From Acidobacteriota bacterium (GTDB lineage: Bacteria; Acidobacteriota; Terriglobia; Acidiferrales; UBA7541), in assembly GCA_003224085.1 (NCBI GenBank), contig QHYK01000085.1:1-64000 (forward strand): 64,000 nucleotides of DNA. The letters run 5' to 3'. The notes beneath the pieces are model-generated. The model did no database searches, had not been told where the DNA came from, and saw only the letters and a program-made list of their open reading frames with translations. The stretch's first letter is position 1. The number at the start of each line of letters is the position of its first letter. Made by a program: the position numbers and the translations under genes. This document shows positions 13,653 to 17,203 of this stretch, piece after piece.

Positions 13653-14207
13653 ATGTCCGTCAAGCCAGACCGGTGGATCCGGCGCATGGCGCTGGAGCAG
13701 AAAATGATCGAGCCGTTTACGGACCGGCAAGTGCGGGAAGGAGTGATCAGTTACGGAGTGTCATCGTACGGCTACGACATTCGCGTGGCGGACGAGTTCC
13801 GGATTTTCACCAACGTGAACACGACCATCGTCGATCCCAAGCATTTCGATTCGCGGTCGCTGGTGGAATTTAAAGGCGAGGTTTGCGTCATTCCGCCGAA
13901 TTCCTTCGCGCTGGCGCTGTCGGTGGAATACTTCCGCATTCCGCGCAACGTACTGACGATTTGCGTGGGCAAATCGACGTATGCGCGCTGCGGGATCATT
14001 GTTAACGTGACGCCGTTTGAGCCGGAGTGGGAAGGCTTCGTGACTCTGGAAATCAGCAACACCACGCCGCTGCCCGCTAAGATTTACGCCAACGAGGGGT
14101 TGTGCCAGGTGATTTTCTTTTTGTCGGACGAAGATTGCGAAGTCAGCTACAAGGACAAAAAAGGGAAATATCAGGCACAGGGTGGCATCGTGTTGCCGCG
14201 GCTATAG
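13653..14207 (+). CDS. dcd: dCTP deaminase
   Basis: A 184-residue enzyme that deaminates dCTP to dUTP, feeding dTMP synthesis. It shows the family signatures: N-terminal [13 protein letters not shown], the phosphate-contacting GKSTYARCG, and the catalytic-Glu segment [14 protein letters not shown] followed by LCQVIFF. Length and ends match trimeric bacterial Dcd. ATG 13653 has a canonical GGAGGA ribosome site 7 bases upstream. Whether it also hydrolyses dUTP, as some homologues do, cannot be told. It faces the convergent DedA gene across about 120 bp. Confidence 0.96.
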
Positions 14208-14330: not shown

Positions 14331-15266
14331 TCACGGACGAGTTGCCATGGGGAAGCCGCGCTCGCGCCAGGCCTGCAACCCGCCTTCCAGCGGCCGGATG
14401 CGCCTGATACCGTTTTTTCTAAGAAGCAGCGCCACACGGGCGCTGGTGGCTTCGTTGGGTCAAGTACAGTAAAGAACCACTTCGCCATCCCGCGGCAAAC
14501 GGTTGTTCTTTTCTTCGAGTTCCTTGGCTTCGATGTGCACCGCTCCGGGAATGACTTCAGGCGCGGCTTCGAAATCCATCGAATGGCGCAGGTCGACAAT
14601 CGTGATTTGCTCGCCCGCGTCGAGTTTTTGCTTTAATTCATCCACGGTGATACGCGCGATACGCAATTCGCGCAGGAAGCGCTGCCTGCCAACAAATTTG
14701 TATCCGATGTATGCCGCAAGCGCGCCAAACACCACGACAAGAAGCCACCCTCCCAGCGAAGCAAGGCTCGCTGCAACGCGCTCGATCTCTCCGGCGAACA
14801 CGTAGCCAAGCCCCAGAAACGCGCCGGCCCACAGCATGGTACCCAACGCGTCGAACAGCAGAAAGCGCCGAAAGCGCATGTGAAAAATTCCGGCAAGCGG
14901 GGGCGTCACCAATCCCAAGCCGGGAATGAATTTAGCCACTAAAAGCGACCGCGCACCTTGTTTGGAGAAAATACCTTCCGTTCGGCGGACGCAGGAATCC
15001 GGTTCGAGGGAAATGCGGCAGAGAAGCTGCAGAATCTTGATTCCCCTGTGGCGGCCAAGCTGAAACCAGACGGAATCCGAACTAACAGCTCCCAGCACGC
15101 AGAACAAAAGGCAGGCGAAGAAATTCAGGTACCCCTTGCCGGAAAGTGCGCCCGCTGCCAGGAGCAAAGGCATAGCCGGAACAGGCACGCCTAATTGTTC
15201 GACAAAAACCCACCCGAACAGAACGGCGTGTCCGTGGTGGATGAGGAACTCGAAGGCACGATGCAT
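14331..15266 (-). CDS. DedA membrane protein fused to rhodanese domain; candidate selenoprotein with in-frame TGA
   Basis: Read through TGA 14460-14462, the frame gives 311 residues and ends at TGA 14331-14333. Residues 1-195 are a DedA membrane protein (FVEQLGVPVPA; FQLGRHRG; KFIPGLGLVTPPLAG). Residues about 210-311 are a rhodanese domain (ITIVDLRHSMDFE; IPGAVHIEAKEL). The TGA falls two codons after the rhodanese Cys, in VVLYCT-TGA-PNEATSAR, and the frame continues as a complete domain ending RPLEGGLQAWRERGFP. From memory, Cys-containing relatives have YC[ST]CPNE here, so TGA replaces Cys and would give Cys267-Thr-Sec269. A SECIS-like hairpin follows 14 nt later. ATG 15266 is the natural start; an upstream one at 15326 overlaps the nitroreductase. 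The alternative is a nonsense mutation truncating the domain. Confidence 0.72.
14427..14445 (-). promoter_or_regulatory. SECIS-like hairpin downstream of in-frame TGA
   Basis: On the minus strand CAGCGCC, loop CGTGT, GGCGCTG forms a perfect 7-bp stem. The apical loop begins 21 nt after the TGA and has G as its second base. This agrees with the known bacterial SECIS rules (short stem-loop in the coding region, G in the first two loop bases, loop roughly 16-37 nt after UGA). SelB binding is inferred, not shown. Confidence 0.6.
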
Positions 15267-15292: not shown

Positions 15293-15898
15293 TTACTTTG
15301 CCGCGAAGGGAGCAGTATGCCCCCAATGGCCGGTCATCACAAATTCGCGGATGGGCTTGCGCGCTCTTGGCGCCAACTCGGACTTCCGGAAATCCTCGGG
15401 AAGAGTTTCCGGGTCTCCGGGATGGCCAATGGCGATGGCCGACACGGGATCCCAGCCCTCAGGAATTCCGAATGTTTGTCGAGCCTTGTCGTGAGAGAAG
15501 CCGGCCATTTGGTGAACGAGCAGGCCTCGCGATGTAGCCTCCGCGGTCAATTGGGCATTTGCGGCGCCGACATCATGGACAGCCACGGGATTCGGCGTGC
15601 CGTTGTGGCTGAAGTTCCGCCGCGCCACGGAAATCGCGAGGACCGGGGCGTTCTTCGCCCAGTTTTGGTTGAATTCCACCAAAACCCCCAGCATCTTCTT
15701 GAAATTCTCGGGATCATCCTTGGTGGCCACCAGATAAGCCCAGGGCTGCTCGTTGTAGCTGGAGGCTGCCCAGCGGGCCGCCTCGAAAAGGCTTGCGAGA
15801 ACCGCCGGTTCCACGGGCTTGTCCGAGAAAGCGCGTGGACTCCAGCGATTGCGGATGAGCTCGTGAACAGGATGATCGGTTACCGCTGCTTTGTGCAT
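15293..15898 (-). CDS. Nitroreductase-family flavoprotein
   Basis: A 201-residue FMN-dependent oxidoreductase. ATG 15898 is preceded by AAAAAGGATCAAGAAC, a good ribosome site. The N-terminal FMN-phosphate motif RNRWSPRAFSDKPV and SYNEQPWAYLVA, plus the C-terminal GHPGDPETLPEDFR, match the nitroreductase family; EATSRGLLVHQMAGF is also typical. Members reduce nitro groups, quinones or enones with NAD(P)H. It lies 26 bp upstream of the DedA-rhodanese gene and about 100 bp downstream of yceI, inside a MarR-headed gene run, which suggests a role in handling electrophiles or oxidants. Confidence 0.92.
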   Translation of the reverse strand: MHKAAVTDHPVHELIRNRWSPRAFSDKPVEPAVLASLFEAARWAASSYNEQPWAYLVATKDDPENFKKMLGVLVEFNQNWAKNAPVLAISVARRNFSHNGTPNPVAVHDVGAANAQLTAEATSRGLLVHQMAGFSHDKARQTFGIPEGWDPVSAIAIGHPGDPETLPEDFRKSELAPRARKPIREFVMTGHWGHTAPFAAK

Positions 15899-15998: not shown

Positions 15999-16625
15999 TT
16001 AGTCGCCGGATTTTACCGGAGCTTTCTGGATGAATTCCGCATCGATGGTGATGTTCACTTCGTCGCCCACCACGACTCCGCCGTTGTCGAGCTTGGCGTT
16101 CCATTTCACGCCGTAGTCCTGCCGGTTGATTTTGGTAGTGGCGGAGACGGCCACGCGCTGATTGCCCCACGGATCCTTCGCCGGGGAAGTCGGCCCTTCC
16201 ACGTCGAGGACGACTTCCTTCGTTGTGCCATGAATGGTCAGGTCACCGGTGACGCGGAGCTTTCCGGGGGCGACTTGCTCGACCTTCTTGGATTTGAAGG
16301 TCATGGTGGGGAAGTGCGCCACATCAAAGAAGCGTTCGCTGCGCAAGTCCTTATCGCGGTCGGGTTCGCGGGTATCCACGGTGTTCACGTCGATGGTCAC
16401 ATCCACGCTCGATTTGGCGATGTCCTGGTCATCGAGCAGCATCGTTCCGCGCATCTTGCTGAACGCGCCGCGCACGGTGGAAAGCCCTAGATGGCGGACG
16501 GCGAACTGCGCTGAGGAGTGTTGCGGGTCAATCTGCCAGCTGGAATTGCCGGCTCGGACAGGCAGGGAAAGCCCCAGTGCCAGGCTGGCGAGTATTGCCA
16601 TTCGAGAGAGGTATCGATTCATCAT
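15999..16625 (-). CDS. Exported YceI-family lipocalin-like protein
   Basis: A 208-residue protein. ATG 16625, or the adjacent ATG 16622, follows AGAAGGAAAATC. The leader MAILASLALGLSLPVRAG signals export. The mature part is a YceI beta-barrel: WQIDPQHSSAQFAVRHLGLSTVRGAF at the start, then LRSERFFDVAHFPTMTFKS and LTIHGTTKEVVLDVE. YceI proteins bind polyisoprenoid-type lipids or quinones in the periplasm and are often linked to redox stress. It is 52 bp downstream of marR on the same strand, so probably in the same transcript. Confidence 0.94.
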   Translation of the reverse strand: MMNRYLSRMAILASLALGLSLPVRAGNSSWQIDPQHSSAQFAVRHLGLSTVRGAFSKMRGTMLLDDQDIAKSSVDVTIDVNTVDTREPDRDKDLRSERFFDVAHFPTMTFKSKKVEQVAPGKLRVTGDLTIHGTTKEVVLDVEGPTSPAKDPWGNQRVAVSATTKINRQDYGVKWNAKLDNGGVVVGDEVNITIDAEFIQKAPVKSGD

Positions 16626-16677
16626 GATTTTCCTTCCTTCTTGAGTTTGGAGTTTGAAACATGGAACTGCTGTGTCT

Positions 16678-17139
16678 TTACTGCTGCTCGTGCGCACGAA
16701 CTTCTTCCAGCAAGTCATACAGAGTCTTCAGGCGCGCGCCAGCCATGTGCCGGAACTGCTTTTTGTGCAAATCCCGCATGGGTTGGTCCAGCGGCTTTAA
16801 CAGCTCAAGCCCACGCGGAGTAATGCGTGTCTTCACGACGCGGCGGTCGTCCTTCTGGCGTTCGCGGGTAATCAATCCGCGCTTCTCCATGCGGTCGAGC
16901 AGACGCGTAATATCCGGGTCGTGCGTAATCAAGCGCTCGCCAATGCCGCGGCAGGCCAGTCCGCCCGGGCCCGCGCCGCGGAGGATGCGCAGCACGTTGT
17001 ACTGCGTGCCGGTCAATTCCGCGGTGCGCGTGAGATGTTCGGCTTGTTGGCCGAGCGCGTCGGCGGCCTTCTGTAAGCTGAGAAAGGTGCGCTCTTCCAA
17101 GCGAGCGGGCGGGCGTTGCGGTTTGTTCCCGGCGTTCAT
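16678..17139 (-). CDS. MarR-family transcriptional regulator
   Basis: A 153-residue winged-helix regulator. ATG 17139 gives the usual N-terminus. The recognition helix region is LACRGIGERLITHDPDITRLLDRMEKRGLI, and the wing is REERQ-like (RERQKDDRRVVKTRITPRG), the classical MarR D-x-R motif. A perfect 9-bp inverted repeat lies just upstream of the start, so it likely represses its own operon (marR, yceI, nitroreductase, dedA-rhodanese) and releases on binding a phenolic ligand or on Cys oxidation. The single visible Cys is in LACRG. Confidence 0.93.
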   Translation of the reverse strand: MNAGNKPQRPPARLEERTFLSLQKAADALGQQAEHLTRTAELTGTQYNVLRILRGAGPGGLACRGIGERLITHDPDITRLLDRMEKRGLITRERQKDDRRVVKTRITPRGLELLKPLDQPMRDLHKKQFRHMAGARLKTLYDLLEEVRAHEQQ

Positions 17140-17148
17140 GAACGGAAT

Positions 17149-17170
17149 AATAGTCGTGTAAACGACTATT
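17149..17170. promoter_or_regulatory. Candidate MarR operator palindrome
   Basis: AATAGTCGT-GTAA-ACGACTATT, perfect 9-bp arms with a 4-base centre, lies 10 bp upstream of the marR start codon. The size and symmetry fit a MarR dimer site, and the position would block transcription of the four-gene run. Confidence 0.75.
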
Positions 17171-17203
17171 GTCAAGAGGAAAATGTCAGGACGACGGCGC
17201 CTT

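Follow-up and report, generated by a model that had tools for sequence, protein, structure and literature searches.

A DedA-rhodanese fusion in Acidobacteriota with an in-frame TGA codon predicted to encode selenocysteine

In a 64,000-nucleotide window of the genome of an Acidobacteriota bacterium (contig QHYK01000085.1; the window is the whole stretch of DNA that was analysed), a frame encoding a DedA-type membrane domain followed by a rhodanese domain meets a TGA codon and then continues in phase through a complete domain end. The locus raises the question of whether this TGA terminates the protein, replaces a Cys codon by error, or is read as selenocysteine (Sec), and, in the last case, what a Sec residue might do in a rhodanese domain joined to a DedA protein.

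The reading frame and its surroundings

On the minus strand, the DedA-rhodanese frame begins with the ATG at 15266–15264, reaches a TGA at 14462–14460, and runs on for 42 codons before the last TGA at 14333–14331. The sequence around the internal TGA is YCT-TGA-PNEATSARVALLLRK, which upon read-through would give LYCTU. A conventional reading ends at the first TGA, with 268 residues when counted from the ATG or 288 from an upstream TTG. Both the position of this TGA directly after the rhodanese Cys-Thr, with 42 codons to a second TGA, and the 268-residue truncated annotation had been put forward in a sequence-only reading of the window, and both are borne out by the frame. Because PF09335 is followed by PF00581 in one frame, the product is a DedA-rhodanese fusion (Table 1), and the predicted structure likewise comprises a helical part and a rhodanese-like part (mean pLDDT 83.6, pTM 0.69, 47 sequences, with Sec modelled as Cys). 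The two strands of the window together contain 1,729 TGA triplets. Three of them have 100 or more open codons before them and 20 or more after, as well as a hairpin of at least six Watson-Crick pairs in which G is the first or second base of the loop; among the three, the longest preceding frame was that of the TGA at 14462–14460 (332 codons vs 104 and 120).

Table 1. Coordinates of the features of the locus, numbered from the first nucleotide of the window.
Feature	Position	Strand	Basis or detail
Read-through CDS, predicted DedA-rhodanese selenoprotein, 311 residues, Sec = residue 269	14331..15266	-	Frame and 79 homologous loci
In-frame TGA, predicted Sec codon (residue 269)	14460..14462	-	TGA/Cys comparison over 79 loci
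bSECIS-like element	14423..14453	-	Lower stem GAAGC/GCUUC, 4-nt bulge, upper stem AGCGCC/GGCGCU, loop CGUGU at 14434-14438
Alternative 7-bp stem (lower stem left out)	14439-14445 paired with 14427-14433	-	CAGCGCC / CGTGT / GGCGCTG
DedA/VTT domain, PF09335, residues 29-155	14802..15182	-	Pfam 58 bits; helical part of model
Rhodanese domain, PF00581, residues 207-302	14361..14648	-	Pfam 55.1 bits (read-through protein)
C83, basic DedA loop	15018..15020	-	27/27 rows of A1, 47/47 rows of A2
C92, same DedA loop as C83	14991..14993	-	27/27 rows of A1, 46/47 rows of A2
C267, aligned with the rhodanese active-site Cys of 3tp9	14466..14468	-	Alignment; invariant in A1 and A2
Nitroreductase-family protein, directly upstream	15293..15898	-	ATG start chosen; ORF to 15961
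YceI-like protein	15999..16718	-	ORF limits; true start inside
MarR-family protein, probable regulator of the unit	16678..17175	-	Upstream on same strand

The MarR, YceI and nitroreductase neighbours named in the earlier reading were found as described. The nitroreductase is immediately upstream in 32 of 34 same-genus loci, the two exceptions being L056, for which there are 4 bases of upstream sequence only, and L095, a distant second copy; outside the genus the MarR-YceI-nitroreductase arrangement fades. The MarR-family protein is a probable regulator of the unit, the partners of the putative operon may function together, and the neighbours suggest co-expression with an oxidative or electrophile stress unit. 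A dCTP deaminase-like gene (13653–14207, plus strand; PF22769, 126.3 bits), present in 31 of 34 same-genus loci, faces the fusion gene.

The TGA codon, the downstream hairpin and the selenocysteine machinery

With the first 268 residues as query against this genome and 120 relatives, matches at E 1e-10 or better were obtained in 107 of the 121 genomes, many of them to DedA proteins without a rhodanese. Among the matches listed (to E ~7e-13), 79 loci from 77 genomes, including the one under study, extend to the rhodanese end; this set leaves out DedA-only matches and two short contig-edge matches (G045 and G082). Codon 269 among these listed matches is TGA at 57 of 79 loci (the present one included) and TGC or TGT at the other 22, and no other codon is found. 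The TGA is thus common to 56 further loci from other assemblies, at protein identities down to 35%. None of the 79 listed loci stops at the TGA position; they run on through the same conserved end, where the natural stop of the gene in the relatives is TAA, TAG or TGA. The coding sequence beyond the TGA and the hairpin is under constraint, with pS of 0.36–0.74 vs pN of 0.09–0.18 (25 codons, 11 relatives). Two loci, L056 and L088, are partial or split, and one TGA form, L050, has a further stop between its two domains and may be broken or mis-assembled. The sequence-only reading had expected Cys at the TGA position in relatives, within a motif YC[ST]CPNE; a Cys codon is aligned there at the 22 loci, and the motif is present in many Cys forms. 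It had also named homologues ending at the same place as grounds for abandoning the idea, and none of the 79 do.

Bacterial SECIS elements are constrained in their distance from the UGA and in the position of a G within the loop. Here, the hairpin loop begins at nucleotide 22 past the TGA (21 bases between) and its second base is G; the perfect 7-bp hairpin that had been claimed at this distance, with its G, is present as described. The fold of the TGA plus 48 nt has a free energy of -15.8 kcal/mol (z -2.90), which 1 of 200 shuffled sequences equalled. The stem-loop rule that we applied, taken from a section of PMC1088965, calls for a SECIS-like stem-loop past the TGA whose small apical loop contains G, and this is the arrangement seen here.

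The nucleotide sequence of this region is retained in a manner that follows the TGA. Codon usage was compared over 60 Sec rows, consisting of 51 of the 57 TGA loci and 9 from a pattern scan of Acidobacteriota for C-x-TGA, and 21 Cys rows; the motif employed caught 81 of 88 loci and missed six Sec and one Cys. In the Sec rows, codons 6–10 past the TGA read AGC GCC CGT/CGG GTG/GCG GCG with few exceptions (AGC in 59/60). The Ala codon at position 7 is GCC in 60/60 Sec rows and 6/21 Cys rows, and that at position 10 is GCG in 60/60 and 11/21, respectively. For the hairpin itself, 122 rows were assembled (121 different; 64 Sec, 58 Cys) after three partial loci and three duplicates had been dropped. 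An intact hairpin, defined as five inner pairs plus G in the first two loop bases, occurs in 62 of 64 Sec rows vs 4 of 58 Cys rows, 37 of the latter having been chosen from a scan able to find Cys forms only. The Sec rows lacking it are L060 and L206, and the Cys rows possessing it are L110, L123, L132 and L154. One Cys form from the same genus, L042 in genome G003, has the 7-bp stem, but neither of its first two loop bases is G; it is probably a recent Sec-to-Cys change. G003 also carries the second, distant Cys copy L095.

On the best tree, a quick tree built without the active-site end and including some long branches, there are 14 changes between Sec and Cys (8 of them forced by starred branches), compared with an average of 40.7 for shuffled labels. 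Among 8 independent Sec/Cys pairs taken on the starred branches, an average of 6.8 have the hairpin with Sec and 0.0 have it the other way round; the sign test gives a median p of 0.016 (range 0.016–0.125). For the outer stem pair, nt 15/nt 33, in 55 rows, G15 is met by C in 11 and by G in 4, and C15 by G in 37 and by C in 3; by independent pairs on the tree, the covariation of this pair was not significant (median p 1).

The genome under study (6.8 Mb, 97% complete) encodes selA, selB, selC and selD, so that the lack of Sec machinery, named beforehand as a reason to drop the proposal, did not materialize. SelA (C58:48211-49596) scored 561.3 bits, SelB (C7:160831-162711) 352.9 bits and SelD (contig C89) 344.5 bits, while selC, the tRNA-Sec with anticodon TCA, is located at C122:3224-3318. 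Within the window itself, Rfam (gathering) and ARAGORN returned nothing; the machinery is located elsewhere in the genome. The selD gene is split over the contig ends C18 and C89 (L196 and L195), which overlap by 136 bases, and its N-terminal part reads VKAAGUAAKLSPSLL, with an in-frame TGA at what we take to be the SelD active-site position that is normally Sec or Cys. On this reading of the sequence, selD is very likely a second selenoprotein of this genome.

Among the 79 listed loci, SelA and SelB are both over cut-off in the genomes of 50 Sec loci, one of them in 7, and neither in 0; the corresponding numbers for the Cys loci are 14, 1 and 7. The genomes of the 7 Sec loci with one of the two are 77–94% complete; in each of them the other gene, selA or selB, is absent or scores under the cut-off. 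The absence of both is therefore confined to Cys loci (0/57 Sec vs 7/22 Cys; Fisher p 5.9e-5, kinship ignored), and Cys forms occur also in genomes with the full machinery, as the 14 loci demonstrate.

The alternation of TGA with Cys codons, the retention of the hairpin with TGA, the complete selABCD set of this genome, and the restriction to Cys of the 7 loci in genomes where neither selA nor selB is over cut-off together indicate that the TGA almost certainly encodes Sec and that the gene specifies a selenoprotein. SelB and Sec-tRNA(Sec), acting with a SECIS hairpin 7–37 nt past the UGA, would insert Sec at residue 269. Were the TGA instead a true stop, arising from a sequencing error or a nonsense mutation of a Cys codon, the product would be the 268-residue protein of the conventional reading and the rest a remnant, and the locus with a stop elsewhere, L050, shows that a member of the family can look broken. 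This is highly improbable, since the same TGA recurs in the 56 other loci, which come from other assemblies, purifying selection acts past it, and the hairpin is retained nearly exclusively with it. Translation of the UGA as some other residue, through a code change or near-cognate read-through as Trp or Cys, has no direct point in its favour beyond a frame that would be open under any such code, and it is scarcely credible: every one of the 22 loci without TGA has Cys at the aligned position, the Sec machinery is complete and the hairpin properly spaced, the 7 loci whose genomes have neither selA nor selB over cut-off include no TGA form, and relatives that end this gene with TGA, besides TAA or TAG, imply that TGA is still a stop. 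A stop codon, a sequencing error and a code change were accordingly rejected on the conserved TGA/Cys codon, the constraint past it, the hairpin and the Sec machinery.

Relationship to known rhodaneses and DedA fusions

The Cys that opens the active-site loop of a canonical rhodanese corresponds by alignment to C267, which pairs with the active-site Cys of 3tp9, presumably the catalytic one. With C267 as the canonical Cys, Sec ends a C-x-U pair. The sequence-only reading had proposed a Cys-x-Sec pair, and this stands; what it missed is that, from the alignment, Sec is not the canonical rhodanese Cys but stands in for the second Cys of what was ancestrally a CxC pair (C267-x-U269).

Rhodaneses with this motif are on record. 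The 2026 review of prokaryotic selenoproteins (PMC13188914) includes in its tabulated matter a rhodanese form 3, CxU, NF041203. This family, rhodanese_LYCAU (example TKB26178.1), has the same domain with the C-x-U motif found here, but its 126-position profile includes no membrane domain, while the present protein has a DedA part. NF041203 was the best NCBIfam match (89.4 bits over profile positions 19–125 of 126; 84.9 in a six-frame search), and the score falls short of the curated cut-off of 115 bits. With Sec taken as Cys, eight proteins were scored against it: the present one, a further five DedA fusions, of which 3 have Sec and 2 have Cys, and two CxU rhodaneses from Acidobacteriota that stand alone. 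All eight fell below 115, at 80–106 bits. The protein thus resembles form 3 in its CxU and is not filed as an equivalog member. TsoB, which is rhodanese/DsbD fusion-like (form 5, NF045694, UxxxxU), also combines a Sec rhodanese with a further redox part; according to its table row in PMC13188914, it differs in motif and in fusion partner.

DedA-rhodanese fusions with Cys are likewise known. Those annotated as DedA/thiosulfate sulfurtransferase GlpE (e.g., Xanthomonas sacchari WP_043095768.1) have the same domain order, and differ in having Cys for Sec, with 35–43% identity among the 12 matches listed. Members from Xanthomonas, Caballeronia and a Comamonadaceae, which are located on plasmids, include the CxCPNE or CxCPAE loop and the C...C loop pair, and K-x-x-P-G-x-[SA] replaces R-x-x-P-G-x-R. 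The CxC loop and the C...C loop pair are both found in the present protein, in which the second Cys of the former is predicted to be Sec. The same domain order is described for PA1209 of P. aeruginosa in a passage of PMC12893004, and passages of PMC10127716 and PMC12893004 treat DedA (COG0586)-rhodanese fusions as known and call their role unclear. Redox fusions are recorded for the other DedA subfamily, COG0398, in PMC10127716, where the relevant passage gives no mechanism. DedA or VTT does not occur in the main text of PMC13188914, and a search of the open literature, with most subscription papers and supplementary tables outside it, revealed no Sec-containing DedA-rhodanese fusion in print. 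As far as the literature was searched, CxU rhodaneses and DedA-rhodanese fusions were each known separately, and the Sec-containing fusion, in many Acidobacteriota, is new.

In a scan of 396 Acidobacteriota genomes, C-x-TGA followed by the conserved residues was present in 30 genomes and in 22 of 211 genera, with 0 for a reversed control; being exact, the pattern passes over Sec forms that are more diverged. The frames of 20 of the 30 loci were read, and the 8 that are not DedA fusions were typed in this way. Twelve encode DedA-rhodanese fusions (the present one included), and six encode a rhodanese alone, which begins with an N-terminal signal or resembles a lipoprotein at its start; a further locus has a short rhodanese on its own, and in the last the rhodanese lies behind a membrane domain. 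The six stand-alone forms with such starts, all of the C-x-Sec type, are L199–L203 and L218, of which L199 scored 87.8 bits against NF041203, under the cut-off. In L204, from another acidobacterial genome, frame reading places the C-x-Sec rhodanese behind a membrane domain resembling a cation/proton antiporter. A contig scan found Cys forms in Acidobacteria, Nitrospira, Verrucomicrobia and others; its pattern requires Cys at the Sec codon, and it is therefore mute on Sec forms outside Acidobacteriota.

The DedA part and a possible role of the C-x-Sec centre

Two overlapping alignments, A1 (27 rows) and A2 (47 rows), were used to examine the DedA part. C83, C92, K112, C267 and C/U269 are invariant in the 27 aligned rows. 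The loop carrying C83 and C92 is basic, and a basic stretch precedes the rhodanese domain, so that, by the positive-inside rule, both the loop and the rhodanese would be expected to face the cytoplasm. The Cys pair is also present in 4 of 12 chosen DedA proteins without a rhodanese and is thus not tied to the fusion, which weakens the notion that it arrived with the rhodanese. These four proteins, L187–L190, have the pair as C-x8-C and keep Arg at position 118; in the ~2.5-kb stretches around them there was no significant rhodanese match.

With the COG0586 undecaprenyl-phosphate (UndP) flippases (UptA, YghB/YqjA), the protein shares PF09335, E23 and the P-x-P of the first re-entrant tip. It differs in its extra rhodanese and its Cys pair, in having no acidic residue at position 35, a placement that assumes an offset from YghB numbering, and in the second re-entrant tip, where it has K112 and G118 in place of two Arg. 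Mapped to the flippase Arg site through the motif in paralogues, position 118 is occupied by N, S, G, A or D and never by Arg in A1 and A2, whereas all 12 of the DedA-only proteins chosen for comparison have Arg there. The two Arg sites at this tip bind phosphate in UndP flippases, as stated in a passage of PMC10127716. Lacking the Arg that such flippases require, the DedA part probably has a cargo other than undecaprenyl phosphate, as judged from these alignments.

The product would be a membrane protein of DedA type carrying a rhodanese at its C-terminus, both active sites being presumably cytoplasmic. By alignment, C267 would be the canonical persulfide-accepting Cys, and U269 might either form a selenenyl-sulfide with C267 or attack the C267 persulfide. 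The C-x-U centre could then hand electrons or sulfane sulfur to or from C83/C92 of the DedA loop, and the rhodanese domain, by sensing or using the cytoplasmic thiol or persulfide state, could switch or drive the DedA carrier. Such a relay, running through selenol/thiol or persulfide chemistry and with DedA as its target, is put forward tentatively; that transport by the DedA carrier is itself driven or gated by a Se-based relay through the loop Cys pair is more doubtful, but if true it would supply a mechanism for the DedA-rhodanese fusion.

The Sec protein might instead be a simple membrane-anchored sulfurtransferase or persulfide reductase, with an independent DedA part and no relay. In keeping with this, the best 50 of 309 Foldseek matches to the C-terminal domain are mostly rhodaneses and rhodanese fusions, including persulfide dioxygenase-rhodanese and NADH-dependent persulfide reductase, and PMC10127716, in the passage concerned, leaves the role of COG0586 fusions unclear. 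We nonetheless give it slightly less weight than the relay, as the near-invariant C83 and C92 would lack an explanation, and the absence of Arg at 118 throughout A1 and A2, set against its presence in the DedA-only proteins, argues that the DedA part is at least no ordinary UndP flippase. The same weight goes to a C-x-U selenenyl-sulfide serving only as an oxidative on/off switch of rhodanese activity or as protection of the enzyme from irreversible oxidation, with no turnover of substrate by Se. The repeated exchange of Sec and Cys on the tree speaks for it, as it implies that Cys is able to do the job; the retention of Sec in many lineages (64 Sec rows) suggests a real gain of some kind.

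With this fusion, the bacterial selenoproteome gains a membrane-fused architecture, in a phylum that is common in soil. Conventional reading would truncate the family at residue 268, and all eight proteins tested with the curated CxU model lie below its cut-off. The natural series of Sec and Cys forms is well suited to the question of what advantage selenium has over sulfur, and the four conserved Cys/Sec positions provide a direct handle on the role of rhodanese domains on DedA proteins.
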